IMG/VR virus record: IMGVR_UViG_3300021389_000096
Span: 1-31,018 of that record
Length of the DNA stretch: 31,018 bases
Origin: a virus
Direction: 5' to 3' (one strand)
Translations under genes and position numbers: made by a program
In this document: piece after piece, positions 6,878 through 22,067 of the stretch
How the letters are laid out: the number at the start of each line of letters is the position of its first letter
Numbering within the stretch: the first letter of the stretch is position 1
Notes under the pieces: model-generated
What the model was told of the DNA's origin: nothing
Seen by the model: only the letters and a program-made list of their open reading frames with translations
Database searches by the model: none

Positions 6878-7795
6878 TTATTTATTCTCTACGAAATCTT
6901 TGAATGAGAGTAGTTTTCGAGAAGAAATAATTTCAAAGAAAGTTTTTGAATCTGGACCGCTGAGACGATTATAATCAAATTTAACCTTTGAAAATATTGG
7001 TCGATAGTGTAGAGTTCTTTCTTTAGGAATGATTAGAAGTTGACCCGTTGTTACCATATCACCTTTATTAACATTACCAACTCGAAGTGGATTCATGAAT
7101 TGATCTTTATCTGGACACTTGGCCAATAAATCCATTAATTCTCCAGGTTCAGTGATTTCTGATGAAATAGCCTTTGTGGCATACTCTAATCTCTTTTCGC
7201 TACTCTTTCTGGATTTGACTAGTCTTGGATCAGTAGGATTTTCATGATAGCCAAGCTGCGGCATCATAATTCCATGATTAGTTCTACAAGAACATTCATC
7301 TTCATTAGGCGAAAGATGCTTTACTTTGTATTGATATTCACGAGGATTATCTTTAGTAGCATCATCTTTTTTTATGGTGAAACCGCCTTCAAGGATATAA
7401 CAATCTTTTTCATTAAAGACATATGTAGCTCCGGCAAGATTGTGTTGAATTAATACGTTTAAAGCTTCTTTAGGCGTCTTCATTAAAAGAGCTTTACGAA
7501 TAGCTCTTCCATCTGGAGAATAATAGCCATATTGATCACGCTTATTTTTACGTTTAAGAATAATCTTATCGCCTTCTTTCTCATCACTTTTTACAGAGAA
7601 TGATGCGGATATAATTGAAACACCATATTCATTTACACCTTCGCTCCATCGACTTAATTTATCATCGATATATAGACGCTGAACATCATGACGATTGCTC
7701 TGAACAATCTCTACCTCTGCCTTATAGTTTCGATCACGATTTTTTGCTCCAACCCAACCATGATCTTTGAGATATTTTATTGCGACTACACACAT
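6878..7795 (-). CDS. Ntn-hydrolase, C45/choloylglycine-hydrolase-like
   Basis: 305 aa starting MCVVAIKYLKDHGWVGAKNR, so removal of Met would expose Cys2 as an N-terminal nucleophile, as in choloylglycine hydrolase and acyl-CoA:6-APA acyltransferase (C45) families; the GAKNRDRNY segment matches the conserved Arg/Asp region after the nucleophile. SRWSEGVNEYGVSIISASF continues the N-terminal Ntn beta-sheet. Homologues occur in T4-like phages, with substrate unknown (amide bonds of peptides, acyl-homoserine lactones or bile-salt-like conjugates are possibilities). The C-terminus ends KLLSFKDFVENK, which resembles the FKxY/F...E segments at the starts of the putative virion proteins. Confidence 0.75.
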   Translation of the reverse strand: MCVVAIKYLKDHGWVGAKNRDRNYKAEVEIVQSNRHDVQRLYIDDKLSRWSEGVNEYGVSIISASFSVKSDEKEGDKIILKRKNKRDQYGYYSPDGRAIRKALLMKTPKEALNVLIQHNLAGATYVFNEKDCYILEGGFTIKKDDATKDNPREYQYKVKHLSPNEDECSCRTNHGIMMPQLGYHENPTDPRLVKSRKSSEKRLEYATKAISSEITEPGELMDLLAKCPDKDQFMNPLRVGNVNKGDMVTTGQLLIIPKERTLHYRPIFSKVKFDYNRLSGPDSKTFFEIISSRKLLSFKDFVENK

Positions 7796-7819
7796 ACATA
7801 TATTTATATAATATTACCG

Positions 7820-7984
7820 CTATTCTTCATATTCATCTTCATCAATTATCTCTTCTTCACCGTAGTTCTCAGAACCACAGAATGGACAAAAAGATGGAAC
7901 AAGATCTTCATCAACGTCTTGTTCTCTATATCGAACAGTGTATTGTGATGTACAGTGAGGGCAATATTGTGTTTCGTTTATCAT
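7820..7984 (-). CDS. 54-aa zinc-ribbon protein
   Basis: The frame encodes MINETQYCPHCTSQYTVRYR, then an acidic stretch and SFCPFCGSENYG, ending in an acidic tail (EEEIIDEDEYEE). Two CPxC knuckles about 22 residues apart make a typical zinc ribbon. Its ATG overlaps the NrdA stop as ATGA. Small zinc ribbons like this occur in phages as adaptors for polymerase or nuclease complexes; the role here is unknown. The double-knuckle pattern makes the gene secure despite its size. Confidence 0.8.
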   Translation of the reverse strand: MINETQYCPHCTSQYTVRYREQDVDEDLVPSFCPFCGSENYGEEEIIDEDEYEE

Positions 7985-9627
7985 GCTTCGCAGGATGAGC
8001 AGTTAAGTAGGTTACGAGATAGTTCTTGAGATGGATTAGTGCCGCGATGATAATATAAAGTCTTAACACCTTGTTCCCAAGCAAAGATAAGAAGTTGATT
8101 TACTTCTCTTGCTGGAGTTTTTGGGTGAATCATCAAATTAATACTTTGAGCTTGATCTATAAAATTTTGTCGAATAGCTGCTTGAGTAATAATTTCTCTT
8201 TGTGAGATTTCACCAAACGTCTTAAAAACATCTTTTTCTTCATCTGTAAGAAAATCTAAATGTTGAACAGAGCCACCATTCGTGAGAATTGATTTCCATG
8301 TTGGACGATCATTCTTATTATGCTTTATAAGAAGTATTTCAAGATGTGGATTTTTATATGTGAATTTACCTTTTGCCAAATCTTTTACAAAGTAATTTGA
8401 ATTTAAAGGCTCAACACTTGGAGATACTTGTCCAAGAATGAATGAACTTGATGTAGTGGGTGCAATCGCCATAGTGGTGACATTACGCAAACCATATCCT
8501 TTAAGCAATTCTGGCTCTCCGTATTTCTCTGCCATGATTTGAGATGCTTGATGTGATTCCTTTTTTATATATGAGAATATATCAGCATTTAATTGTTTTG
8601 CCTCAAAACTTTCAAAGGCAATCATTTTTGACTGTAGATAAGAATGCCATCCAAGTACACCAATACCAAGTGCTCTTTGTCTTTCAGCAAACTTTCGTGG
8701 TGCCTCCATATAAGGGATATTTTCAGTCTTACTAATGAACTCAGACATGACAGCATCAAGAAAGAATGTTAACACCTCGACAGCATCTGTTCCTTTCCAT
8801 TGATCATAATGAAGAAGATTCATTGACGATAGATTGCACACGAATGACTCATCATTACTTGATGAAAGAGCGATTTCAGAACAAAGATTAGATGCATAAA
8901 TCTTCTTACCTTTATCTTGATAAACCTGCGGTGCATTCTTATTCATTGTGTCAGAGAAGAACAAATATGGATAACCAGATTCAAATCTCTTTTGAATCAC
9001 CTTACCCCATATCTTGCGCTTATCTTTATCACCATCAACCATTGACTTCATCCATTCGTCAGATATTGTAACACCAATAGATAGATTTTGAATTGGGTTG
9101 CCATCGCTACGAATCTGTAAGAATTCTAGAATATCTTTATGCTCAATGGGCATATAAGCCGCGAATGAACCTCTTCGAACGTTAGACTGAGAAACTACAT
9201 TTGTGACTGTCTCAAATAATTCCATAAAGTGAACTGGACCATTTGATTTACCACCAGCAGAAATTTCTGCTCCTCTCTCACGAAGATCTCCAAAATACGC
9301 AGAAGTTCCTCCACCCATCTTAGTCATCATTCCGACTTCAGCTTGCTTTGTTAAGATAGCTTCTAATGTATCATCAACATAAGAGCCGAAGCATGAAATT
9401 GGCAATCCTCTTTTTAGACCATAGTTGGCCCAAATAGGTGACGATAAAGAATACCATCCATAGGACATATACTCTTCAAATTTCTCTGCAAAGCCTTTTA
9501 TCTTTAATTTTTTTTGTGCAGCTTTAGCAATCTCAGTGATTCGCTCTTCTGGTGATTGATCACTTGTTAGGTAACCGCGTTCAAGAAACTTGCGCGAATC
9601 TTCATTTAACCAATAGTATTTTTCCAT
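7981..9627 (-). CDS. nrdA: Ribonucleotide reductase class Ia large subunit
   Basis: 548 aa. Active-site residues are all present: C79 (GLPISCFGSY, radical-transfer-linked thiol), N247/C249/E251 in SNLCSEIALSS, C264 (FVCNLSS), PTTSSSFILG, the radical-path YYHRG near the C-terminus, and the C-terminal redox pair C543/C546 (NCSSCEA). It reduces ribonucleoside diphosphates with NrdB. It is much shorter than E. coli NrdA (761 aa): the N-terminal ATP-cone is absent, so overall activity regulation by dATP is probably lost, which suits a phage that needs high dNTP output. Starts 15 bases after nrdB. Confidence 0.96.
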   Translation of the reverse strand: MEKYYWLNEDSRKFLERGYLTSDQSPEERITEIAKAAQKKLKIKGFAEKFEEYMSYGWYSLSSPIWANYGLKRGLPISCFGSYVDDTLEAILTKQAEVGMMTKMGGGTSAYFGDLRERGAEISAGGKSNGPVHFMELFETVTNVVSQSNVRRGSFAAYMPIEHKDILEFLQIRSDGNPIQNLSIGVTISDEWMKSMVDGDKDKRKIWGKVIQKRFESGYPYLFFSDTMNKNAPQVYQDKGKKIYASNLCSEIALSSSNDESFVCNLSSMNLLHYDQWKGTDAVEVLTFFLDAVMSEFISKTENIPYMEAPRKFAERQRALGIGVLGWHSYLQSKMIAFESFEAKQLNADIFSYIKKESHQASQIMAEKYGEPELLKGYGLRNVTTMAIAPTTSSSFILGQVSPSVEPLNSNYFVKDLAKGKFTYKNPHLEILLIKHNKNDRPTWKSILTNGGSVQHLDFLTDEEKDVFKTFGEISQREIITQAAIRQNFIDQAQSINLMIHPKTPAREVNQLLIFAWEQGVKTLYYHRGTNPSQELSRNLLNCSSCEA

Positions 9628-9642
9628 AATGTATATATCTCT

Positions 9643-10617
9643 TTAAAATAAGTCGTCTTCGTCGTATGATTTGTCTTTCTTCGAATATTCTGTCGGGCGT
9701 TTGTAAAAGAAATCAGTTGCATTATTTCCCAACACATCCTCATCAAACCATTCTGTCTTCTCTAAAAGCTCTTGATCAACATCAGAAAACACTGGCTCAA
9801 TTCCAATTTGAGTAAGAGAATCATTCAAACGATTCTTAATAAAGTTTTGTAGAATAGGAGTTGAAAGGTGTTCGGACTGATATCCATTCACAGACCACTC
9901 AATGATTTTTGATTCAGCATTATATGCTTCAATACATTCAGAACGAATACGATCAATCAATTCGTCATCAAATAATTCTGGGTATTCTTTACGAATTGTA
10001 TTCACGAGTTTCATTCCAACCATAGCATGAATCAATTCTTCTTTTGATGTATATGCCACTTGTTGAGCAGTATCTTTTAATAGATTACGAAAGCGATTAA
10101 AATAATTAATTGTATAAAACTGACTAAACAAGGAAACATTCTCTACATACAATGTAAAGAGAATCAAGGAATAGACGTATTGTTTCTTTGAGTCCTTATA
10201 ATATTTGTGAAGATACTTACGAAGGTATTTTACTCGATTGTGAATAATATCAAGCTTAAGATTCTCTTCAAAGATATCTTCCATTCCAAGAACATCAAGA
10301 AGTCTCTCATATGCATTGTTATGAATCACCTCAACATTAGCCATAACATAGCCAAGATCTGTGATAGATGGATGCGGTAGATTTTCTCCTACTTTTGCCC
10401 AGAATGTCTTAACCGCGACTTCAATCTGTCCAATGGCAGATAAAGAACGAGTGACCATATCTCGTTCTTTATCGGTTAAATTAACTTTAAAATCCTGAAT
10501 ATCAGATTGGAAATTGAACTCCTTATCGGTCCAAAACCCATTGTGCATGGCTGTAATAAAGTCCTCTGTCCAAGGATAGTGATCGGGTTTACGCGAGATT
10601 TGTTCTTCGAATATCAT
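9643..10617 (-). CDS. nrdB: Ribonucleotide reductase class Ia small subunit
   Basis: 324 aa. The di-iron site is visible: E96 and H99 in NVEVIHNNAYERL, a Glu in YVENVSLFSQF, and Glu/His in EELIHAMVG. The radical tyrosine is Y103, four residues after H99, as in E. coli (H118/Y122). The first carboxylate, Asp in E. coli, appears to be Glu (E66, GQIEVAVKTFW). The acidic, flexible C-terminus (YDEDDLF) is the expected docking tail for NrdA. Transcribed first, from the promoter at 10648-10674, with nrdA downstream. Confidence 0.96.
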   Translation of the reverse strand: MIFEEQISRKPDHYPWTEDFITAMHNGFWTDKEFNFQSDIQDFKVNLTDKERDMVTRSLSAIGQIEVAVKTFWAKVGENLPHPSITDLGYVMANVEVIHNNAYERLLDVLGMEDIFEENLKLDIIHNRVKYLRKYLHKYYKDSKKQYVYSLILFTLYVENVSLFSQFYTINYFNRFRNLLKDTAQQVAYTSKEELIHAMVGMKLVNTIRKEYPELFDDELIDRIRSECIEAYNAESKIIEWSVNGYQSEHLSTPILQNFIKNRLNDSLTQIGIEPVFSDVDQELLEKTEWFDEDVLGNNATDFFYKRPTEYSKKDKSYDEDDLF

Positions 10618-12210: not shown

Positions 12211-12236
12211 TTTGATATTCACGTTTGATATTCACG
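12211..12236. repeat. 13-bp tandem duplication at a stop codon
   Basis: TTTGATATTCACG occurs twice in a row (12211-12223, 12224-12236) at the 3' end of the 287-aa gene. Thirteen is not a multiple of three, so the duplication shifts the frame and creates the present TGA; with one copy the protein would end REYQMED rather than REYQT. Confidence 0.85.
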
Positions 12237-13082
12237 ATCAATCTCGTCAAGAATATATAAAATCTCTTCAATTGCTTTTTCCATTTTACGAAACTCAGGA
12301 TCGTAATTACCTTCGAGTTTTTTATTAACGGCTTTATTTAAGTTAGAACCTCTTTTTAAAGATGCTGTAAGTCTAGTTACAGCATCATAAGCGGCTTTAG
12401 CGCCTTGGCTTGATTCTGGAAAACCTCTTGCTTCTTCAAGTTCGACATCTTCTTTAAACGGTGACACTGATTTAGTAACATACGCAATTCCTTGAGCCAA
12501 TTGCTTAATCTCTTCTTTAGGTATTTGAATGAATTTCATACCGTAATTAATCTGTAGGCCTGCTCCTTTGCCTTTACCCATTGCAAATTGAGTGAGGGTA
12601 ATTTTCCCCTTCTTGTAAAGTTCAGTAGCTTCTTCAAGATCAACTGATTCAAATGCCATCATAGCATCTTTAACATTTTTAAAATATTCAACTCCCGTTG
12701 ATAAACCACCATCGAACTTGATCTTACCTTTTTCGATAGATACATCAACTACTGCACCTTGGCCAAAATCTGCTGTATTTCCTTCAACATCAGCACCTGC
12801 CTTTTTAGCAGCGGCTAAAACCTTTTTGATATCGGCCGTCGATGCTTCTTCAAGGTCGACAGACTCCTTCTTAATTGCTTTACTAATCGCTTGACGTTTT
12901 TTATGAAGATATTCATCAGAGCTATCTGTGTCTCCATCATTATCAATATCTTTATCTTCACGATCATCAAAGTCACCCTTTACAGCTTTAGGATCTACTT
13001 TATCTAGCTTAGCAGCTTCGTTATACATTATAGAACTAGCTGCTTTAGCCAATTCGCGAGTTAAGTCGTCATTTAAATTCAT
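12219..13082 (-). CDS. Modular polyprotein-like protein with EF-hand-type loop
   Basis: 287 aa. N-terminal 79 residues carry a calcium-loop pattern, DIDNDGDTDSSDEYLHKKRQ, with D45, D47, D49, G50, D53 and D56 in EF-hand/dockerin register. Three linkers follow: SVDLEEA (A80), SVDLEEA (A152) and DVELEEA (A218), each fitting L-x-E before A. They separate blocks of 72, 66 and 70 residues. The block at 80-151 is a near-copy (58 of 72 identical) of a block in the 902-aa protein. It is likely a virion-associated, protease-processed protein; block functions are unknown. A TATAAATA-like GATAAATA lies upstream at 13108-13115. Confidence 0.75.
   Translation of the reverse strand: MNLNDDLTRELAKAASSIMYNEAAKLDKVDPKAVKGDFDDREDKDIDNDGDTDSSDEYLHKKRQAISKAIKKESVDLEEASTADIKKVLAAAKKAGADVEGNTADFGQGAVVDVSIEKGKIKFDGGLSTGVEYFKNVKDAMMAFESVDLEEATELYKKGKITLTQFAMGKGKGAGLQINYGMKFIQIPKEEIKQLAQGIAYVTKSVSPFKEDVELEEARGFPESSQGAKAAYDAVTRLTASLKRGSNLNKAVNKKLEGNYDPEFRKMEKAIEEILYILDEIDREYQT
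12630..12845 (-). repeat. Duplicated 72-codon block, copy in 287-aa gene
   Basis: Encodes a 72-residue block starting ASTADIKKVLAAAKKAGADV. Partner: 15225-15440 in the 902-aa gene, same length, 58 of 72 residues identical by hand count, including a shared ESVDLEE end. Shows exchange of blocks between neighbouring genes. Confidence 0.9.
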
Positions 13083-13442: not shown

Positions 13443-16151
13443 TTATGCTTTTAGTTTAGCAAGTTTAGAATTAAGCATTTTTAAATATCCTTCCTTACCA
13501 CCATATTGGCTGAATCTTCGAGGATCAGGATTCTTAATCATCTTTTCAAGTGATTCAATATCCTGTTGTTTATCGCTTTTAGCTTCAAGCTGCACAAATG
13601 CATCTTTACCAAATCTATTACCAATAATTGTTTTTGCCTTTTTAATTTGTGCAGATGTTGCAGGAGAATCTTGTTTATAGATGTTAAATAGTTCATGCCT
13701 AAATTTATCAGCTGCGCTAGAATCGATTTTAAATAGCATTTGACGTAGTTCGCGAACTGTAGCATTTTTTGCTTCTTCAAGATCGGGTGATTCTGATTTT
13801 TGTTTCTGTCGCTTCATTTCTCTCTTAATAATGGATAGCTCATAAGGTGTAAGCTTTCCATCTTTAAAGTTCGAACTCTTTTTGAGCATTTTCTCATAAA
13901 AAGCTAAGCTCTTACCTTCATAAGTTGACATTATATTATCAATGAAGTTTAGTCTTTCTTTAGCTTTAATACCTTTCATTGCACCGTCCGCAGCGTCGGC
14001 TTCATCAAGTTGAGTTGACTCTTCCATTACCTTAGATTTTGCAGACTTAAATTCTGCAGTATTAATAAAGGAAATTCTCTTACCACTTCTTTTGACCTTT
14101 AACTTCATTGAAGTAAATAACTTTTCTGCTTGTTTCGCCTCAGCGTCATTAACAAATGTTATGGTCTCACTTTCTCTATTGACCTTTGGTTTATAAAATG
14201 TAGCTTCTTCAAGATCAGTTGATTCTTTAACAGCTCTACCTCTTAATGCTTTGATCACTTTTCTGATATTTGCAGGCCCAATAACAGACATTAGCGCCAA
14301 ATTTATATCTTTCATCATATACCTATCATCAGCAGTGCTACCTTTGAACAGTTTCCTTACTTTTATGACGTTGGCAGTTCCAATACCAGCAGACCTTAAT
14401 GCCATACTAATGTCTTTCATCATATACTTATCTGTAGGAGCTTCTTCAAGCTCAGTTGATTCTTTCATATTGGCAACTTCTGGTTGCTTTTTAATGTATC
14501 TTATAATGTATAGTTCATTTGGATAAATGATTTCGTCTCCTTTTACCATATCATCCCAATTATATCCACTAAACTTATTCTTAAGTTTCTTGATAAGTCT
14601 TTGAGCCGCAGCGGGTGTGTGAGCTTTAAGTCTATTATTCGCTTCTTCAAGATCAGTTGATTCACCTAACACTGCATCTACACTACCACTTGGAACTAAT
14701 GAAGGATCACCTTTCATTTGTTTAATTCCTTTTTTAATAGCTTCAGCTGAGTTACGTGCTTTAACATCAACTGTTTGATCCTTAAAGAGTTTACCAGCTT
14801 TCTTAGTGATAGTAACTGTCCACCATTTGACTGCTTCTTCAAGATCAGTTGATTCCTTAACTGATTTAATTCTAACGTATTTCTTTTGGATTGCATTGCG
14901 TTTCCAGTCATTCTTATTAAAGTTTTTGAAGTTTTTAACTTCATCATACTCGTCATAAGTCAATATATTTGTCCTTTCAAGATCAGTTAATGCTTCTTCA
15001 AGATCATTTGCTTCTCCCATCAACTTGGCTTTATTATCCTGATACCATGCGGCGTCAGCTGGTTCAGCATTTCCGCCAATCTTAGCAGCAGCCATTTTAG
15101 CACCTAGCCATTTTGTCCAAGACTTTGACGGGCTTAGTTGCTTTCCTGTTTTCTTGTCATAGATGATCCACTTGGCACTAGATTCGAACATCTTATACGC
15201 TTCTTTTGTGACTTGGCATTTAACTTCTTCAAGATCAACCGATTCAAATGCCATTATAGCATCCTTAGCATTATTAAAATATTCAACTCCCGTTGACATA
15301 CCTCCATCGAACTTGATCTTACCCTTTTCGATAGATACACCAATTAGTGATCCTTCACCAAAGTCGATTTTATTACCTTTAATATCAGCACCTGCCTTTT
15401 TAGCAGCAGCTAAAACCTTTTTGATATCGGCCATTGATGCTTCATGAAGTTCAGTTTCTTTACTAACTTTACGAATAACTTTAGCTGATTCAGTAAGATT
15501 AAATGCCTTATAAGCTTCGCGTATCTTCGACGGTGAAGTAGTGATATCGATGTTAGAAGAATCAACAAAAGCTTCAATAAGTGATTGATTGTTTTCATTG
15601 ATCACTAACGATACCATCTTTTCGAGTCGAAGAGTATCGAGATCTTTTGCCTTTACTGATTCTTTTATTTCTTCTCCTTCAGGACGACGACCGCTCTTTT
15701 TAGGATAAATAATTTTAAGAGGATTATTTGTAATGAAGATAAGCTGATCATCTGAATCTAAACCAGCAGCAGTTGCAGCCTTTGTTGTTCCTAATAGCTT
15801 ATTTTTAATACCAAGCTTAATTTCTCCGGGACGAACACTTGAAATTAGTTTCTTTAAATCGTATTTCTTAATAAGTTTGGCTTGCTTGTCTTTGTCTCCA
15901 TCTGTTCTAGACCATGCTTGTTCGAGACCTTTAAATGGAACTACCTTTGCTTCATCAAGGTTAGATTCTTTTTTTAAGCGTTTCATCCACTCACCTTTAA
16001 GTGCCTTTAATATAGGCTGTGCTGATGATCTACCAACGTTTTTAAAAATATCTAAAAGATCTTTTAACTCTGACGTTGATAGTTTTTCGTAATCTGCAGT
16101 TGTTGCTTCAGATAGATATTTTTCGATAATTTCTTGTTCCTTTATATTCAT
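13443..16151 (-). CDS. 902-aa modular polyprotein with repeated protease-like sites
   Basis: Starts MNIKEQEIIEKYLSEA, like the T4 internal-protein capsid-targeting peptide (MKTYQEFIAEA, cleaved before the last A). Sites of the (L/I)-x-E|A type follow with A at residues 16, 68, 238, 387, 440, 504, 571, 650, 718 and 794, plus one degenerate site LEE-V at 310. Blocks between them are 52, 170, 72, 77, 53, 64, 67, 79, 68, 76 and 109 residues. Each is basic, Lys-rich and mixed alpha/beta, with short helices (for example ARNSAEAIKKGIKQM, LIKKLKNKF). Block 571-649 holds an internal duplication of YMMKDI...AL. A TATAAATA promoter sits just upstream. Proposed: late, packaged, cleaved into about 11 small basic proteins. 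No block has a recognised function. Confidence 0.85.
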   Translation of the reverse strand: MNIKEQEIIEKYLSEATTADYEKLSTSELKDLLDIFKNVGRSSAQPILKALKGEWMKRLKKESNLDEAKVVPFKGLEQAWSRTDGDKDKQAKLIKKYDLKKLISSVRPGEIKLGIKNKLLGTTKAATAAGLDSDDQLIFITNNPLKIIYPKKSGRRPEGEEIKESVKAKDLDTLRLEKMVSLVINENNQSLIEAFVDSSNIDITTSPSKIREAYKAFNLTESAKVIRKVSKETELHEASMADIKKVLAAAKKAGADIKGNKIDFGEGSLIGVSIEKGKIKFDGGMSTGVEYFNNAKDAIMAFESVDLEEVKCQVTKEAYKMFESSAKWIIYDKKTGKQLSPSKSWTKWLGAKMAAAKIGGNAEPADAAWYQDNKAKLMGEANDLEEALTDLERTNILTYDEYDEVKNFKNFNKNDWKRNAIQKKYVRIKSVKESTDLEEAVKWWTVTITKKAGKLFKDQTVDVKARNSAEAIKKGIKQMKGDPSLVPSGSVDAVLGESTDLEEANNRLKAHTPAAAQRLIKKLKNKFSGYNWDDMVKGDEIIYPNELYIIRYIKKQPEVANMKESTELEEAPTDKYMMKDISMALRSAGIGTANVIKVRKLFKGSTADDRYMMKDINLALMSVIGPANIRKVIKALRGRAVKESTDLEEATFYKPKVNRESETITFVNDAEAKQAEKLFTSMKLKVKRSGKRISFINTAEFKSAKSKVMEESTQLDEADAADGAMKGIKAKERLNFIDNIMSTYEGKSLAFYEKMLKKSSNFKDGKLTPYELSIIKREMKRQKQKSESPDLEEAKNATVRELRQMLFKIDSSAADKFRHELFNIYKQDSPATSAQIKKAKTIIGNRFGKDAFVQLEAKSDKQQDIESLEKMIKNPDPRRFSQYGGKEGYLKMLNSKLAKLKA
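14228..14441 (-). repeat. Internal duplication inside one polyprotein block
   Basis: Two units of about 37 codons, DKYMMKDISMALRSAGIG... and DRYMMKDINLALMSVIG..., each followed by ANxxKV and a basic helix, lie back to back in residues 571-642 of the 902-aa protein with no LEEA linker between them. Confidence 0.8.
15225..15440 (-). repeat. Duplicated 72-codon block, copy in 902-aa gene
   Basis: Encodes a block starting ASMADIKKVLAAAKKAGADI; partner of 12630-12845. Its closing linker has changed from LEEA to LEEV, so if the linkers are cleavage sites this one may be lost. Confidence 0.9.
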
Positions 16152-16214: not shown

Positions 16215-18647
16215 TTATTTTCCAAATTCGTGACCAGCCACGCGTTGCATTTGTTTGCTATATTCTTTAAAATCTGGTTTTTCTTTATAAAGTTTAATTG
16301 AAATGTTGGGTTTTTCTTTTCCCATTATACGCCATTTATAACCTTTTTCAAGGTGCTCTGGATCTGTAGTTTTAACTACTCTTCTTTTATATCCTTGCTC
16401 CCATGTTTCTCCCTTATACTTACCTTCTCCTTCTTGTATATTTTGGCCAGGAGTATTCTTCTTAAATATTTTTGTTGTCTCAGGAGTTCCGTAATCTAAA
16501 GCTTCAGTTGGTTCATGTGTCCAACCTTTAGCTGCTAGTCTTTCGTGATCTTCAGGTTTTTCAGCCTTTTCTTTTTCTCCAGTTTTTGGATCATACATCC
16601 AATGCGGTTCGAAATCCTTTGACTCTTCAATTGATTCTTTCTTACCTTTATGCTGAGCCCAAAGATCTTTATCAGCGGTTGTTCTTGTTTTGCCTCCAGT
16701 GGCAAATGAATTAATTCGAGCAAATCCCCACTGGGTTGGAGTAGTTCCAGGACGATGACCTGTTCTCCATGCAGCTACACCGCGATCAAATACTTTCTTC
16801 AAAATAGAATATGAGATGCCAGTCTTTTCAGCCTTATTGCGAATACCTTCTTCGGTACTTTCACTTATAGGTATTTTTTTCCATCCAGCTTTCGTACGAA
16901 GTGTATTCAATTGTTGAATAATTTTCTTTTGATTAGATGAACCGGGAGTAGATGCTAATGCCTTTTTTAGAAGGCTAAGCATTTCAACATCCGTTTCATT
17001 ACCTTCACCAAGTTGTTGCTTAATCCAATCTTTCGCAATCTTATTTCTTGGAGTTGCATCAGCAAACTTACTCATCTTCTTATAGGCATCAGTAGTTGCT
17101 TTTTGCCAATTTGCTCCTTCAGAATTATCTACAATTATAAAATTATCTTTAAAGAATGATTGGAATTTACCGATATTCTTTTGAACTTCATCCCACATAA
17201 TCTTCACTTGTTTCGGACCAAGTGTTCGATTTCTTTGAGAATCTCTTTTAACTGCTGTATCAAAATCAGTATTAACAAGAATCATAGCTACATCATAGCC
17301 AATTTCTTTTAATTTAGAAGCTTGCTTTTTAATCTTTTCATAATCTTTACCTGTTCCATCAATCACTAGGCCAAGACGACCTTGAATATAGAGGTCCATT
17401 TGTTTAGATGTTAAAGCTTTTGCCTTTGCGCGAACTTCTTGTCCTTTCGGTGAGAAGATAAATTCTGGCTCCATTACACCACCAGCTTTTTCAATTGCCT
17501 TTTCAAAAGCAGGATCAGAGTTTACCAATTTAAATCCGAGGGCACTTAAACCAGTCTTACCAACTGTAAATGATTTACCCGAACCTGGGCCACCTGCGAG
17601 GAATATCGCCTTAAAGATTGCAGGATCATCTACGCCTTCTTGAAATTCTTCACCGAACATATCCTTGAATTTCTTAGTATACTTCGAAGGTTTTGTTTCA
17701 GTTGTAGCATCTCCTGGGGCTGGTTTATAAGCTGCTGGATTATCATCATCCATTTTAGCTTGTTTATTAAATTGCGCTTGTCGTTTATCTTTAGTCGACT
17801 TTGACAATCCAGCATGATACTTTGGATTTACCGATTCTTCAAAATATTCTTCCAAATCATTAATGAAATACTTAGTACCAATAGAACTTGTAACATAATT
17901 TGTATAGCGTTCAACTATAGTAAAATTTTGATTTGTTTTTTGGCATTGAACTCTATCACCAATATTAAAGATTTCTCCTGCAACGAATTTCTCTCGTTTT
18001 TCAGAAATAGTTGGAAGCTGAATATGCTTTCGGAAACTATTCATTTCTTTTAATCCCATTCTTTTACGAAGAAGATTAAATACTGATAGTTTATCTCCGA
18101 ATGATTTTGGAAGACCATTAGCAAATGACTGAAAGTCTCCTGATTTTGCTGCTGTTCTCATTTTAGAAGCAGACATTCCTGAAACATCATCTGCATCTGG
18201 ATCACGATCACCGGCAGACTTGAATGTAATACTATCAAAATCGTAAAAGCCGTGGCGTGCCTTTATACCATTATACTTGAGAAGTAAAGTTTTAAAGTCT
18301 TTGATACGATCAGCGCCAATTACCATTGTTATATCGCTATAACCTTGATTGTAAAGTGACACAACAATATCAAAAATATTAACGATATTCGTATCAAAGA
18401 TGATGTTCCGAGCATATTTCGGAAACATCTTACGCATGATTCCTACTTTTTCTTTATATTGAAGAGGATCTTTTTCGGGTTTATTAGATTGCGATACGAA
18501 AATTTTATAGTCTCCGCCTTTAGCAGCATCAACTATATTCGAAATAAGCTTTTCGTGTCCAATAGTAGGCGGATTAAATCTACCAAACGTAAACGTTACC
18601 GATTTGGACTTCTCTTCGTTAAACTGTTTAAACCCCTTCACCAACAT
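16215..18647 (-). CDS. 810-aa multi-domain protein: nucleotidyltransferase + P-loop kinase + DUF5824-like
   Basis: N-terminus MLVKGFKQFNEEKS resembles a packaging peptide. Residues 17-195: cytidylyltransferase/NMNAT-like domain, FTFGRFNPPTIGHEKL (TxGH) and SASKMR. About 276-299: KYHAGLSKSTKDKRQ basic segment. 347-540: zeta-toxin-like P-loop kinase, Walker A GGPGSGKS at 352-359, D430 in VIDGTGKD, and R-rich lid TAVKRDSQRNR. 600-650: segment DRGVAAWRTGHRPGTTPTQW, as in DUF5824 proteins. 683-712: WMYDPKTG...AAKGWTHEP. Linkers fitting (L/I)-x-E|G/S: LGE|G (548/549), IEE|S (675/676), IQE|G (739/740). Possibly a packaged enzyme polyprotein acting on nucleotides, NAD-type cofactors or host targets. 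Domain calls are good; processing is inferred. Confidence 0.8.
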   Translation of the reverse strand: MLVKGFKQFNEEKSKSVTFTFGRFNPPTIGHEKLISNIVDAAKGGDYKIFVSQSNKPEKDPLQYKEKVGIMRKMFPKYARNIIFDTNIVNIFDIVVSLYNQGYSDITMVIGADRIKDFKTLLLKYNGIKARHGFYDFDSITFKSAGDRDPDADDVSGMSASKMRTAAKSGDFQSFANGLPKSFGDKLSVFNLLRKRMGLKEMNSFRKHIQLPTISEKREKFVAGEIFNIGDRVQCQKTNQNFTIVERYTNYVTSSIGTKYFINDLEEYFEESVNPKYHAGLSKSTKDKRQAQFNKQAKMDDDNPAAYKPAPGDATTETKPSKYTKKFKDMFGEEFQEGVDDPAIFKAIFLAGGPGSGKSFTVGKTGLSALGFKLVNSDPAFEKAIEKAGGVMEPEFIFSPKGQEVRAKAKALTSKQMDLYIQGRLGLVIDGTGKDYEKIKKQASKLKEIGYDVAMILVNTDFDTAVKRDSQRNRTLGPKQVKIMWDEVQKNIGKFQSFFKDNFIIVDNSEGANWQKATTDAYKKMSKFADATPRNKIAKDWIKQQLGEGNETDVEMLSLLKKALASTPGSSNQKKIIQQLNTLRTKAGWKKIPISESTEEGIRNKAEKTGISYSILKKVFDRGVAAWRTGHRPGTTPTQWGFARINSFATGGKTRTTADKDLWAQHKGKKESIEESKDFEPHWMYDPKTGEKEKAEKPEDHERLAAKGWTHEPTEALDYGTPETTKIFKKNTPGQNIQEGEGKYKGETWEQGYKRRVVKTTDPEHLEKGYKWRIMGKEKPNISIKLYKEKPDFKEYSKQMQRVAGHEFGK

Positions 18648-18651
18648 AGTA

Positions 18652-18825
18652 TTATTTTTCCTTTACTTTTGATTCATTCGGTCCGCCACCTAAGCTTTGT
18701 TTTTTTCTTTTGGCATTATTATATGCTAAGATTCCGTCTGGATCCACATCGGTTCCAGCTTGTTGAGTATAGTCAACTACTAAGAAATCTTTAAAATTGA
18801 GAATTTTTTCTGGTAACTTATTCAT
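18652..18825 (-). CDS. 57-aa small protein with FKDF motif
   Basis: An ATG at 18825 opens a 57-residue frame, MNKLPEKILNFKDFLVVDYT and onward, ending in a basic tail (KRKKQSLGGGPNESKVKEK). It fills the gap between the ligase-like and 810-aa genes with 4 and 28 bases to spare. LNFKDFL resembles the FKxY/F segments that open neighbouring proteins. The upstream AAAGA is a weak ribosome-binding site. Function unknown. Confidence 0.6.
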   Translation of the reverse strand: MNKLPEKILNFKDFLVVDYTQQAGTDVDPDGILAYNNAKRKKQSLGGGPNESKVKEK

Positions 18826-18853: not shown

Positions 18854-20086
18854 TCATTTTTGCCATCCTTTAATTACATCTGGTGAAAAATTGTTCATTG
18901 AAAATTCTAATCTATCTATCAATTTAACGGCACCAGAAGAAGTCTTATCAATGGCAACGAATCCTTCTGAACCTGTAACCTTAAAACCATTCTTAGTACG
19001 TACAAATGTATCAAGTTGTTTTACTTTATCTAGTTTATTTATAATAAGAAGTTTTGCGTCTATAATAGCATTCTGAAGCTCAAATATAAGTTCAAGGTTC
19101 TTTTTATTATCATTCGAAAAGAATGCCATTAATTCCTGTTCTTTCGCATCAATTGCTTCTTTACCTTTTTCGGATTTACGTTTTTGTCTTTCTTTTTCGA
19201 ATCTATTTTTAAACCATACAATAAGATCACTTACGTGTTTTGTTGGTGATGCGATTCGTTCTCCTTTACGAACAAGAGTATTATTAAACGTTTCAATTTG
19301 CCGAGCAAGATCAATATTAGATTCTAATTGTCTCAATGTTGTTCCGGCAATCTTTTGAAAAATTCTACCAGCTTGAGATAAAGCATCATTTACTTGCTTA
19401 GTATCGACTGCAGATAAACTTGCCTTACCTGTCACATCTCTATATTGAGCATCTTGATACCAAACCGAAGATTTTTGTTTTAACTCTTTTAGATTGACAC
19501 CATAAGATGCTTTCATTGAAGGAAAATCTTTGCCCTTATATGTTGTGTGCCATACTACTCCAAGATTTGCTTTAGCAATTTGTTTACCTAAATCTGATCT
19601 AACAGGAATAGCATATACAATTGTGTTTGGCTGAAATGTATAATAAGCTTCGCCATCAATCGTTTCTTTTTTTACATCTCCCTTTGTAAACATGATATCA
19701 CCTTGAATAACATTTTTGATACCCATGTCCTTCAATTCGTTGAATGCAACGGATAGCTTATTCGCAAGATCTCCCGATGTATCAGCACGAACATCAGCTT
19801 CTGATTTATAAACCTTTGGGTCTTTATTGAAGATACCCTTTTTCGCAACAAAGAATTGACCGTCATTTGGGTCGATACCAGCAAATACGGCAGGTGCTCC
19901 ATCCCATTTAACAGTAACATCATAATTCTCATTACTGTTACCAGCCAACATATCTCTCATTGCTCTCAAAGCAAAGATGGCTTCTCGGGCGCCCTTGACA
20001 CCGCCATAGATCACACGATCCTCGATGTGGGTCATATGAGTATTCTTGCCAGTGGCTTCTGATAGATATGTTTTGAAAGATAGCAT
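18854..20086 (-). CDS. Ligase-like nucleotidyltransferase with capsid-targeting-like N-terminus
   Basis: 410 aa from ATG 20086; the 23-residue upstream extension overlaps the previous gene and is rejected. It begins MLSFKTYLSEATG, closely like T4 internal protein III (MKTYQEFIAEA), with L-S-E|A at residues 8-11. Ligase-type motifs: motif I KWDGAP (K60, D62, G63), GDIMFTKGD as a motif-III-like strand, EGFVAID (374-380) as motif IV, and a Lys in AVKLIDR (K388) as motif V. These are the covalent nucleotidyltransferase motifs of DNA/RNA ligases and capping enzymes, though there is no OB-fold visible; a helical Lys-rich region (about 290-350) takes its place. A packaged, injected ligase-like enzyme is the inference. 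Confidence 0.7.
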   Translation of the reverse strand: MLSFKTYLSEATGKNTHMTHIEDRVIYGGVKGAREAIFALRAMRDMLAGNSNENYDVTVKWDGAPAVFAGIDPNDGQFFVAKKGIFNKDPKVYKSEADVRADTSGDLANKLSVAFNELKDMGIKNVIQGDIMFTKGDVKKETIDGEAYYTFQPNTIVYAIPVRSDLGKQIAKANLGVVWHTTYKGKDFPSMKASYGVNLKELKQKSSVWYQDAQYRDVTGKASLSAVDTKQVNDALSQAGRIFQKIAGTTLRQLESNIDLARQIETFNNTLVRKGERIASPTKHVSDLIVWFKNRFEKERQKRKSEKGKEAIDAKEQELMAFFSNDNKKNLELIFELQNAIIDAKLLIINKLDKVKQLDTFVRTKNGFKVTGSEGFVAIDKTSSGAVKLIDRLEFSMNNFSPDVIKGWQK

Positions 20087-20087
20087 T

Positions 20088-20450
20088 CTAATATGTATGT
20101 GTGATAGTAGTTGTTCCAGCGCTAATATCATCCCGTGTATCATCGCCCCATTCAATAATTTGATCAGAAGTTGTGCTAATTACAAATTCAACTTGTGCAC
20201 CTATAATAGACTCATCAAATTTGTAGAATCCAGTTTCATCCCAAAAAGTTTTACTCATTTCACTAGGGACAGAAGGATAGTCCGCATGAAGTACTTTATG
20301 GCGAACATTCATATAAAGTTTTTCGCCGCGAGGATTGGTGCGAATACCATTAACTCCAGTCTGCCATAATGCAGTCTGAGCACCACCAGGGTTTGGTGGA
20401 TTGTCATCATATTCCCATATAGGATTTTGTACTATTGTTACCCAAGACAT
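20088..20450 (-). CDS. Conserved phage protein, possible virion component (120 aa)
   Basis: Begins MSWVTIVQNPIWEYDDNPPN, with PGGAQTALWQTGVNGIRTNP and a beta-rich C-terminus rich in Thr/Ser (STTSDQIIEWGDD, TTTITHTY). No Cys or membrane helix. The Trp/Tyr/Asn-rich beta-type composition is usual for tail or head decoration proteins. It sits directly before the ligase-like gene (1-base gap). No family name recognised. Confidence 0.6.
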   Translation of the reverse strand: MSWVTIVQNPIWEYDDNPPNPGGAQTALWQTGVNGIRTNPRGEKLYMNVRHKVLHADYPSVPSEMSKTFWDETGFYKFDESIIGAQVEFVISTTSDQIIEWGDDTRDDISAGTTTITHTY

Positions 20451-20497
20451 TTTAATTTATTTTGATTGAGTTTATACTGTGAATTTGGCTATATTAA

Positions 20498-21754
20498 CTA
20501 TACTTTCATTTTAAATGAAATCTTTTTTAGAGAAGGGTTTCCGGCATTTGCGTTATAATGAAAAAGAAATTTTCCATCTTTAAATGGAATAAGCTCGTAC
20601 GATAAGTTTTTTCCATTTGTATTTAAATAGAGTTGTTCCACCGTTAATGATGATAAAACTTTATTAAGAAGATCAGTTATACCCTTATCTTTATTTAACT
20701 CATCTACTAAATGATAGCCCATTGGAGATATAATAATACCGTCTTTTCTTTGTTTTGTATTTGCTCCTTCATAGATTCTTTTCCACATCATTTCAGAGAC
20801 ATTTCGTTTTGTTGCTCTATAATATGGTTCTAAGTCTTTTTTAGCATTATCCCATTTTGAGAAGCCGTTTAAATAGTTTTCAATATTATCTCTAGTAACT
20901 TTAGATATTATCTTTTTGATCGCTCTATAACCTGGAGTATTATAAGATTTTGATGCCTCAATGATTCCGCCAATCGTGCTATTATCTGCTATATCAATAA
21001 TCACCTGAGCATGCTTTTTTTCTTTTGAATCTAATTTAATATTTCCGCTTTTAAGTTCTTCAGCTACAACGTTAATACTGGGTGGTGCACCCTTTCCAGC
21101 TTTAGCTGATATTTTTTTATCTCCAGTTTTTGTCTCAACGATATAATCAATCAATGGTTCGTTACTTGCTAATGGAAAATAGACCTTATTACTCTTGTTT
21201 TTATATATGGTTCTTAATAACCAAAGAGCTCCAGTTAACTCTCCAAAGTCCTTTGCGATTTTCGATATATCAGAAGATGTTACAGAATCTCCATATTTAA
21301 CAGATTTTAAATCTTTATTACTCGATTCAATGATTGACAACATAAAGGCTCCAACCTTTGAAAATTTTGGATGCGCTTTGATCGTTTTAACTAGAGTTGT
21401 ATTGAGTTGATCTGAAGTATATTTTTTACCAGCAAATCCCAGATTATCTGGAGTAAATTCTTTATTATTAACTGTTCCCTTAGAACTCTTCGAATTGACA
21501 TACAACATTTTTGTTCCACGTGGAATGTCACCAATTTTTTCGAGTGTAGTAATCTCATATGTTGGAAATGATCCGCTGATCGACTTTTCCATCATTTCAA
21601 TTTTTATCTTTGCTACCTTTTTTAAAATAGGTTCAAAGGCTCCATCAATAGCTGTTCTTAGGTGCGGACCACCTCTTGATGTTTTAGGCATTGGCACCGT
21701 AAGCACACTTCTAAAATATGCTATTAGCTTATTACTATTATTTTTTTCTGCCAT
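20498..21754 (-). CDS. Hypothetical 418-aa protein, possible restriction-fold enzyme
   Basis: Starts MAEKNNSNKLIAYFRSVLTV, with SRGGPHLRTAIDGAF, then SSDISKIAKDFGELTGALWL, and PLIDYIVETKTGDKKISAKA followed by GKGAPPSINVV. The D-x(n)-ISAKAGKGAPPS arrangement resembles the catalytic hairpin of PD-(D/E)XK enzymes where the second acidic residue is replaced by Ser; this is only suggestive. The C-terminal half is basic and mixed alpha/beta. It lies between the small 106-aa-type late gene and the 120-aa protein, and starts one base after its neighbour's end. Function unknown; virion association inferred from position. Confidence 0.6.
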   Translation of the reverse strand: MAEKNNSNKLIAYFRSVLTVPMPKTSRGGPHLRTAIDGAFEPILKKVAKIKIEMMEKSISGSFPTYEITTLEKIGDIPRGTKMLYVNSKSSKGTVNNKEFTPDNLGFAGKKYTSDQLNTTLVKTIKAHPKFSKVGAFMLSIIESSNKDLKSVKYGDSVTSSDISKIAKDFGELTGALWLLRTIYKNKSNKVYFPLASNEPLIDYIVETKTGDKKISAKAGKGAPPSINVVAEELKSGNIKLDSKEKKHAQVIIDIADNSTIGGIIEASKSYNTPGYRAIKKIISKVTRDNIENYLNGFSKWDNAKKDLEPYYRATKRNVSEMMWKRIYEGANTKQRKDGIIISPMGYHLVDELNKDKGITDLLNKVLSSLTVEQLYLNTNGKNLSYELIPFKDGKFLFHYNANAGNPSLKKISFKMKV

Positions 21755-21755
21755 C

Positions 21756-22067
21756 TTATGTCAAGTCAGTGACAGATTTACCTTTTTCCCAAAATTTGCA
21801 TGACCAATATCTTGCTTTCCACTTAGGACCTAAATCAGTATCGCATTGATGACGCGCTCTAAAGCTCTTGCGTCTTTCAGGATCATCTCTTTTAATCTCC
21901 ATATTAGGATCACCAAACCCTAATCTAATGATATTACCTTTTTCGTTCTTTACATATACGTAGAACTTTTTCTTACCGTCATTCCCACGAAACGGTTTAT
22001 TAAGAGTAACCTTTTTACCCTGATACTCACTCTCTTCAAATAGAAAAGAATCTTTGAAATTTAGCAT
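21756..22067 (-). CDS. Small conserved T4-like protein with FKDSF start and Trp/Cys motif
   Basis: 103 aa from the ATG at 22067 (MLNFKDSFLFEESEYQGKKV); an ATG at 22076 would add three residues (MGT). The later start has GGGA just upstream and places the FKDSF...EES segment at the N-terminus like the neighbouring putative virion proteins. The C-terminal motif RRKSFRARHQCDTDLGPKWK then ARYWSCKFW recurs in marine T4-like phage proteins and carries two cysteines and several aromatic residues, perhaps a metal site. First gene after a TATAAATA promoter. Function unknown; virion role inferred. Confidence 0.7.
   Translation of the reverse strand: MLNFKDSFLFEESEYQGKKVTLNKPFRGNDGKKKFYVYVKNEKGNIIRLGFGDPNMEIKRDDPERRKSFRARHQCDTDLGPKWKARYWSCKFWEKGKSVTDLT

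Follow-up and report, generated by a model that had tools for sequence, protein, structure and literature searches.

Candidate capsid-targeted enzymes and a predicted modular polyprotein in an uncultured marine T4-like phage

Tagged enzymes at the DUF6267 locus

The DNA analyzed here, referred to as the window, comes from a T4-like phage in IMG/VR (record IMGVR_UViG_3300021389_000096, positions 1 to 31,018); it is a 31-kb fragment whose long reading frames lie on the minus strand. Its source appears to be an uncultured marine T4-like phage whose head contains several enzymes as well as a dozen small proteins linked in a chain. Central to this view is a 410-amino-acid (aa) protein with the Pfam domain DUF6267 (18854–20086, minus strand; E = 1.2e-105), which begins with a short segment, hereafter the tag, that resembles the capsid-targeting peptide of the T4 internal proteins. 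The initial annotation had proposed that a peptide of this type is common to several neighboring proteins and had named six segments. All six were verified letter for letter, and all lie on the minus strand: MLSFKTYLSE(A) at the N-terminus of the 410-aa protein (20057–20086), MLVKGFKQFNEE at the N-terminus of an 810-aa protein (18612–18647), MLNFKDSFLFEE at the N-terminus of a 103-aa protein (22032–22067), MNIKEQEIIEKYLSE at the N-terminus of a 902-aa protein (16107–16151, with YLSEA as residues 12–16), LNFKDFLVVD, which contains LNFKDFL, in a 57-aa protein (18652–18825), and LSFKDFVENK at the C-terminus (6881–6910) of an Ntn-hydrolase-like protein (gene 6878–7795).

The N-terminus of the DUF6267 protein, MLSFKTYLSE↓A (the arrow marks the predicted cut by a prohead protease), aligns in register with the T4 capsid-targeting peptide, with aromatic residues at positions 4 and 7, Leu or Ile at position 8, and Glu at position 10. 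According to a review, the first ten residues of T4 IPIII are enough for packaging, targeting depends on residues 4 and 7 and processing on residues 8 and 10, and the prohead protease gp21 cuts after L/I-X-E (PMC9026906). DUF6267 N-termini were examined at 79 of 80 IMG/VR loci. Nearly all relatives carry the pattern MxxFxx[YFH][LIV]xE, the next residue being A, S, Q, E, N, or K, and in nearly all of those examined the tag directly precedes the conserved K-N-[TV]-H start of the domain. F4 and E10 are at least 90% conserved in a 40-sequence alignment, and [LIV]xE stands just before the domain in 85 of 85 scorable orthologs (86 matches, one cut by a contig end). Residues 1–17 of the 410-aa protein are disordered in the predicted structure, with pLDDT below 50.

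The domain behind the tag has invariant residues in 40 of 40 sequences (K60xDG, G129D130, E374GxV, and K388). KxDG, GD/GE, EGxV, and K are the motifs of covalent nucleotidyltransferases and RNA ligases. The best VIA-align structures for the 410-aa model are T4 Rnl2 (2hvr, Z 6.1, 158 residues aligned, root-mean-square deviation 4.3), 6vt0 (Z 6.1), and 1xdn (Z 6.0), all with Z under 8. Because these weak structural matches accompany the invariant motifs, the DUF6267 protein may be a nucleotidyltransferase or ligase, and it is a predicted cargo protein. A literature search found no paper on DUF6267.

For a nine-column tag profile, DUF6267 N-termini alone supplied the training set of 37 typed cores, 34 of them unique; irregularly spaced tags, fused forms, and L029, which has no N-terminus, were left out. 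The scan considers starts within the first 16 residues, and offset tags such as that of the S-CREM2 Cas9 escape it. Applied to a T4 control of 58 coding sequences (CDS) from two regions, alt not among them, the profile placed IPII, IPIII, and IPI at ranks 1 to 3. For C48C1 and Melnitz-3, the scans took in CDS of at least 40 aa that lie complete within their locus. In C48C1, five of 196 CDS reached at least 12 bits (0.10 expected from shuffles), compared with none of 780 internal Met positions; in Melnitz-3, four of 210 reached at least 10 bits (0.14 expected), compared with none of 732. The C48C1 matches include DUF6267, 103-aa-type, and DUF5824 proteins, and those of Melnitz-3 include a RimK-like ATP-grasp protein and a protein positioned like the 418-aa protein of the window. 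The initial annotation had named two checks on its proposal, the frequency of profile matches relative to chance and matches on cytoplasmic enzymes; matches exceeded chance across genomes, and NrdA, NrdB, helicase, and UvsX did not score. A loose regular expression for the tag was tried and set aside in favor of the profile, since its 8 of 196 and 7 of 210 matches (1.7 and 1.6 in shuffles) included clear false ones.

In the window itself, the 410-aa protein scores 27.7 bits and, as kin of the training set, is not independent. Ranks 2 to 4 of 43 are held by the 57-aa (5.5 bits), 810-aa (5.4 bits), and 902-aa (4.7 bits) proteins, and the next protein scores 0.4 bits. The above-chance case beyond the 410-aa protein is thus modest within the window alone and well above chance across genomes. 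The 418-aa protein of the window (20498–21754) has no tag. Its Melnitz-3 counterpart (L097 12203–13288) starts MQGFKTFLSE↓A and scores 23.5 bits; both look nuclease-like by eye. A serine/threonine-kinase-like protein of S-CRM01 (L106 5694–8159) starts MISFDQFLSE↓KK and scores 16.1 bits; PMC10665884 cites kinase-like proteins as present in cyanophage virions.

The 810-aa protein (16215–18647, minus strand) combines a cytidylyltransferase/NMNAT-like domain, a P-loop kinase (Zeta_toxin/AAA_33), and DUF5824, and is likewise predicted cargo. Its segment bears out the proposed likeness in part: both aromatic targeting positions are kept, in the window and in the family, but the hydrophobic residue of the cleavage motif is absent here and in 59 of 85 relatives, its own subgroup included, with an [LI]xE-type motif in 26 of 85. 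The 103-aa protein (phrog_7595; 21756–22067, minus strand) belongs to a family found either standalone or as the C-terminal module of the cytidylyltransferase protein. Standalone relatives carry tags of their own (MKSFIEHLSE↓A and MKNFKEHLNE↓A), and where the family forms the last module of a cytidylyltransferase protein it is preceded by FINE↓A, PLVE↓A, or PLME↓A. An [LIV]xE precedes the module in 52 of 58 copies, but the tag of the window protein is degenerate and scores –1.2 bits. In five loci DUF6267 is fused behind the 103-aa module, with SILE↓A at the joint. It is plausible that DUF6267 and the cytidylyltransferase-kinase cargo would form an injected repair or NAD-related kit.

The two remaining segments were considered and found unsupported. 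The 57-aa protein had been listed as a carrier of a similar segment, yet its stretch (LNFKDFLVVDYT) is conserved across the members of that family, and neither Glu nor any other acidic P1 residue stands at the cut. In one locus (L014), a single reading frame carries a 57-aa-type sequence directly ahead of the cytidylyltransferase protein and retains FKQFREE where the two meet. For the Ntn hydrolase, KLLSFKE[FWY] is conserved among the relatives listed, but so is the entire C-terminus, which has no LxE. C-terminal F[KRST]x[FWY] matches are at chance level (1 vs 0.25, 1 vs 0.81, 1 vs 0.92, 2 vs 0.78, and 0 vs 0.28 in shuffles). One can nonetheless imagine a targeting motif placed at the C-terminus: gp279 of S-SCSM1 (L167 5020–5229), a small virion protein, ends in KRTFKEFLEYIE, and the window Ntn hydrolase ends in LSFKDFVENK. 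The proposal of a shared T4-type peptide therefore holds for the DUF6267 protein and, at the family level, for the cytidylyltransferase protein; the peptide is degenerate in the 103-aa protein, and the proposal is unsupported for two of the six segments.

Virion proteins and maturation sites in relatives

Virion evidence for tagged proteins comes from the relatives S-CREM2, S-SM1, and S-SCSM1. The profile scores of all 219 S-CREM2 CDS were compared with the published list of 52 virion proteins (PMC10665884). The five highest-scoring CDS are all on this mass-spectrometry list (chance of drawing five listed proteins, 0.00065): the cytidylyltransferase gp154 (MKNFSSFLTE↓A), the APH/ChoK kinase gp14 (MKRFDAFLTE↓E), the tail-fiber attachment protein gp84, which has no convincing site, gp13 (MKDLHSFLTE↓Q), and the S-adenosylmethionine (SAM) hydrolase gp6 (MKDFDSFLEE↓F). 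A score of at least 5 bits was reached by 6 of the 52 virion proteins and by 1 of the 167 others (one-sided p = 0.0008). The Cas9-like virion protein gp12 of the same phage (L169, complement of 7704–10313) has an offset tag-like segment, RFASFMAE↓A, at about residues 18–26, and its C-terminus is KTFRDFLN.

First-domain orthologs of the 810-aa protein occur in the published virion lists of all three relatives. The S-SM1 cytidylyltransferase (T4-GC190), named as a virion protein in PMC3037559, begins MKKFSAFLNE↓A, and the S-SCSM1 NMNAT, found in virions (PMC9602691), begins MKSFLQFLKE↓A. The authors of the S-SCSM1 (PMC9602691) and S-CREM2 (PMC10665884) papers left purification carry-over open; the tag on these proteins argues for packaging over carry-over. 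Together with the shared register and the recovery of T4 IPI, IPII, and IPIII by the DUF6267 profile, this agreement upholds the annotated likeness to the IPIII peptide. Tagged cytidylyltransferases lie beside DUF6267 in Syn9, S-RIM14, P-RSM4 (5.7 bits), P-SSM2, S-SCSM1, and S-SM1, and the enzyme is untagged in P-HM2 and in the jumbo phage Paride, indicating that the same enzymes both acquire and lose the tag. In the literature accessible to our search, no paper was found that connects the cargo of marine phages to a capsid-targeting sequence.

The tag ends in [LI]xE↓A, the same motif at which the major capsid protein of relatives is cut during maturation; there the site reads FLTE↓T in C48C1, FLSE↓A in Melnitz-3, LLTE↓A in S-CREM2, and FITE↓D and FITE↓E in two IMG/VR genomes with both tag and gp21. 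These sites were placed by position against the cut of T4 gp23. Relatives of gp21 occur on contigs with the tag (G001 and G002) and on contigs with the junction-bearing open reading frames (ORFs) described below. The prohead proteases of C48C1, Melnitz-3, and two IMG/VR genomes themselves end in a tag-like FxxFLS (FKNFLS, FAKFLS, or FEDFLS; L003 14633–15292, L099 29769–30416, L107, and L108).

Modules and junctions of the 902-aa and 287-aa proteins

The initial annotation missed that the tag ends in a protease site that also splits two other proteins of the window into modules. The 902-aa protein (13443–16151, minus strand) is a predicted polyprotein of a 15-residue variant tag, ending in LSE↓A, and 12 modules. 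It contains [LI]xE[AGS] 15 times compared with 2.40 in shuffles and is the most enriched of the 43 window proteins; the most LxE-enriched protein in both C48C1 and T4 is the scaffold gp22, which according to its T4 annotation is degraded by gp21. The modules, of 52–109 residues, are bounded by twelve sites with predicted cuts after residues 15, 67, 164, 237, 309, 386, 439, 503, 570, 649, 717, and 793; most of these sites read ES-x-[DE]-L-E-E↓A. All twelve modules have an isoelectric point (pI) of at least 8.0 with the last eight residues excluded; the basic cargo has a pI of 9.4–9.7. A second predicted polyprotein of 287 aa (12219–13082, minus strand) has predicted cuts after residues 79, 151, and 217, with 3 sites compared with 0.84 expected (p = 0.07).

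The same modules occur in other contigs in different orders and copy numbers. We counted sites at module borders, omitting window copies, the first modules N0 and M1, alignments starting after module residue 15, and copies at ORF starts. An [LIV]xE lies within 4 residues of the border in 80 of 96 copies, compared with 17% of random positions, and Ala follows in 57 of these 80. Module M7 (residues 440–503; 14643–14834, minus strand), the best-traveled cassette, stands directly after xE↓A in 13 of 13 copies elsewhere, with varied upstream sequence. Module M4 (residues 238–309; 15225–15440, minus strand) has a second copy of its family in the 287-aa protein. An AF2 prediction of residues 1–309 of the 902-aa protein (mean pLDDT 67) has six low-confidence stretches, of which four, 61–70, 154–167, 222–235, and 304–309, meet the cuts at 67, 164, 237, and 309; a fragment alignment of the whole protein was misaligned by MAFFT and was not used for structure prediction. 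Neither polyprotein matched a Pfam family at E ≤ 0.01, a tblastn search of GenBank phages with the 902-aa protein gave no match, and a literature search found no modular polyprotein cut by a prohead protease.

The junctions are also conserved as DNA. The junction Leu codon is CTT in 46 of 48 distinct junctions, compared with 40% elsewhere in the same ORFs, and the Ser codon is TCA in 32 of 39; the junction Ala codon and the codons of the DUF6267 tag are free. The word CTTGAAGAAGC (14992–15002, minus strand) has further copies at 12430, 12628, 12844, 13771, 14203, 14440, 14641, and 14833, all on the minus strand; its nine matches in the window (0.02 expected) lie only at junctions. This excess and the codon conservation suggest that the junction is also a DNA seam, probably for cassette exchange.

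A search of viral contigs with GAATCANNNGANCTTGAAGAAGC gave 68 stretches. All 67 distinct sites lie inside reading frames of at least 80 codons, and all 66 scorable downstream segments fall in 27 clusters, with 28 segments matching window modules. Head-gene relatives are present in 18 of the 68 loci. In nine (L173, L174, L184, L196, L200, L201, L203, L206, and L229) the seam ORF lies between the portal gene (gp20) and the prohead protease gene (gp21), the interval occupied in T4 by genes 67 and 68, and in L196 and L200 recognizable cassettes lie in this gene-67-position ORF. Three more (L175, L190, and L199) have the seam in scaffold-like ORFs near gp21. In L178, from an unrelated-looking phage, junction DNA lies near the C-terminus of a 549-codon minus-strand ORF with the look of a protease/scaffold fusion.

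Packaging, cleavage, and alternative explanations

We consider it quite probable that the window encodes head-packaged, tagged cargo together with a cassette-shuffled polyprotein cut by the prohead protease. The observations that favor this are the conservation and register of the tag, its recovery across phages, the agreement with relatives' virions, the sites at module borders, the shuffling of modules, and the gp20/gp21 synteny; packaging, cleavage, and injection in this phage are what we infer from them. The N-terminal segment would act as a T4-type capsid-targeting sequence, binding the prohead core during head assembly and drawing the protein inside. A gp21-type prohead protease would then cut after [LI]xE and remove the tag, leaving a basic enzyme packed with the DNA and later injected along with it. 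The 902-aa and 287-aa proteins would each be packaged as one chain, with ES-x-[DE]-L-E-E↓A separating the modules, and cutting in the prohead would yield roughly twelve small internal proteins from the first and roughly four from the second, most of them basic. In relatives, modules are gained, lost, duplicated, and reordered at the junctions, and some are carried by the gene-67-position ORF in place of a tagged carrier. Early counter-defense is our leading guess for module function, by analogy with T4 IPI, and host takeover may be another role.

Several points weigh against this interpretation. No prohead protease lies within the 31-kb window, which is a fragment, and 16 of 96 module borders have no site. 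The low-confidence AF2 stretches 106–110 and 114–123 fall inside a module. The YLSEA of the 902-aa protein, named in the initial annotation, does end in LSE↓A, but the N-terminus has no aromatic residue at –7 from the cut and scores only 4.7 bits. Conservation of the junction codons goes further than the encoded residues require, and cutting of the protein would not by itself call for it. In the cyanophages examined (S-PM2, P-HM2, S-CRM01, S-SM1, Syn9, and P-RSM4) the DUF6267 orthologs start at or near the domain, without a tag, and packaging is therefore not a fixed property of the enzyme; the resemblance of DUF6267 to RNA ligases is itself weak (Z about 6, and nothing from Foldseek at E ≤ 0.001). 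Most S-CREM2 virion proteins have no tag, and 24 of the 28 non-structural ones score under 5 bits, so the tag would be one route among others. Two structural proteins of this phage reach at least 5 bits with no convincing site.

The conserved junction codons bear on an explanation in which cassettes recombine through a conserved DNA word, the junctions are nothing more than such seams and flexible linkers, and the long proteins act uncut. The freedom of the Ala and DUF6267 tag codons, the confinement of CTTGAAGAAGC to junctions, and the differing module order between genomes all fit it. The seam nevertheless encodes the prohead-protease motif of the relatives' capsid protein and scaffold, variants written with other codons and other residues (ELHE↓A, NLDE↓A, QLDE↓A, FINE↓A, and SILE↓A) still keep [LI]xE, and the seam also occurs in gp67-position ORFs and in scaffold-like ORFs beside gp21. 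We regard seam-only junctions as unlikely; seam and cutting are compatible, and both may hold.

The cleavage step is questioned differently if the tag targets the virion and stays uncleaved, or if the proteins sit elsewhere than the head, in the baseplate or neck. Published mass spectrometry shows the virion, not the head, and the 810-aa and 103-aa proteins of the window have no Leu or Ile at the cleavage position. However, DUF6267 keeps its [LIV]xE in every scorable ortholog, the T4 peptide is described as targeting heads (PMC9026906), and ORFs of the cassette type sit in the gp67 position, flanked by gp20 and gp21; we find this explanation a little less probable still than seam-only junctions. 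That the N-terminal likeness is chance among short amphipathic N-termini of unrelated proteins is already disfavored and seems to us very improbable. Only 1 of the 43 window CDS reaches 6 bits (0.24 expected), and it is kin of the training set, but the C48C1, Melnitz-3, T4, and S-CREM2 profile results and the conservation of F4 and E10 over 40 DUF6267 sequences stand against chance.

Several known phage systems come close to this interpretation. The tags resemble those of T4 IPI, IPII, and IPIII in N-terminal position, length, aromatic residues at 4 and 7, Leu or Ile at 8, Glu at 10, Ala after the cut, and basic cargo; the T4 internal proteins are small single proteins, whereas here large conserved enzymes and a multi-module chain are involved. 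T4 gp22 and gp67 share the dense [LI]xE, with gp22 leading the enrichment in C48C1 and T4 just as the 902-aa protein does among window proteins, and junction-bearing ORFs occupy the gp67 position in nine contigs. Those two are scaffolds degraded to peptides, whereas the pieces here look like discrete, conserved, exchangeable small domains. Ejection proteins of the giant phages SPN3US and phiKZ are also packaged and cleaved after Glu by a gp21 homolog (PMC9026906, PMC10052503); in them propeptides are removed from one mature protein, and the accessible parts of these sources do not mention cassettes that are strung together and separable. Polyvalent proteins (Iyer et al. 2017) have many domains per chain, are thought to be injected with DNA, and were compared by their authors to polyproteins, but they are large enzymes using embedded peptidase domains, and the 902-aa protein has no recognized peptidase or other Pfam domain. 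The NMNAT/cytidylyltransferase and kinases of cyanophage virions (S-SCSM1, S-CREM2, and S-SM1) include tagged first-domain orthologs of the 810-aa protein; the source papers, as far as accessible, give no packaging signal and leave contamination open, and the tag would supply a mechanism.

The new element would be that targeting of the known T4 type, with processing by gp21, extends to enzymes and to a chain of many modules that are reshuffled. We give about even odds to the broader proposal that marine T4-like phages have a modular injected arsenal, in which many small independent effectors would be joined in one chain, loaded by one tag or by fusion to the prohead core protein gp67, and released by the prohead protease, with a 23-nucleotide seam that doubles as protease site and point of cassette exchange. 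The tag offers a simple, testable rule for predicting head-borne phage proteins and a mechanism for the NMNAT/cytidylyltransferases, kinases, and SAM hydrolase that have been repeatedly reported, and left unexplained, in cyanophage virions. If the polyprotein reading is true, many small proteins could be loaded with one signal and quickly swapped, and the modules would constitute a natural library of candidate early counter-defense proteins.

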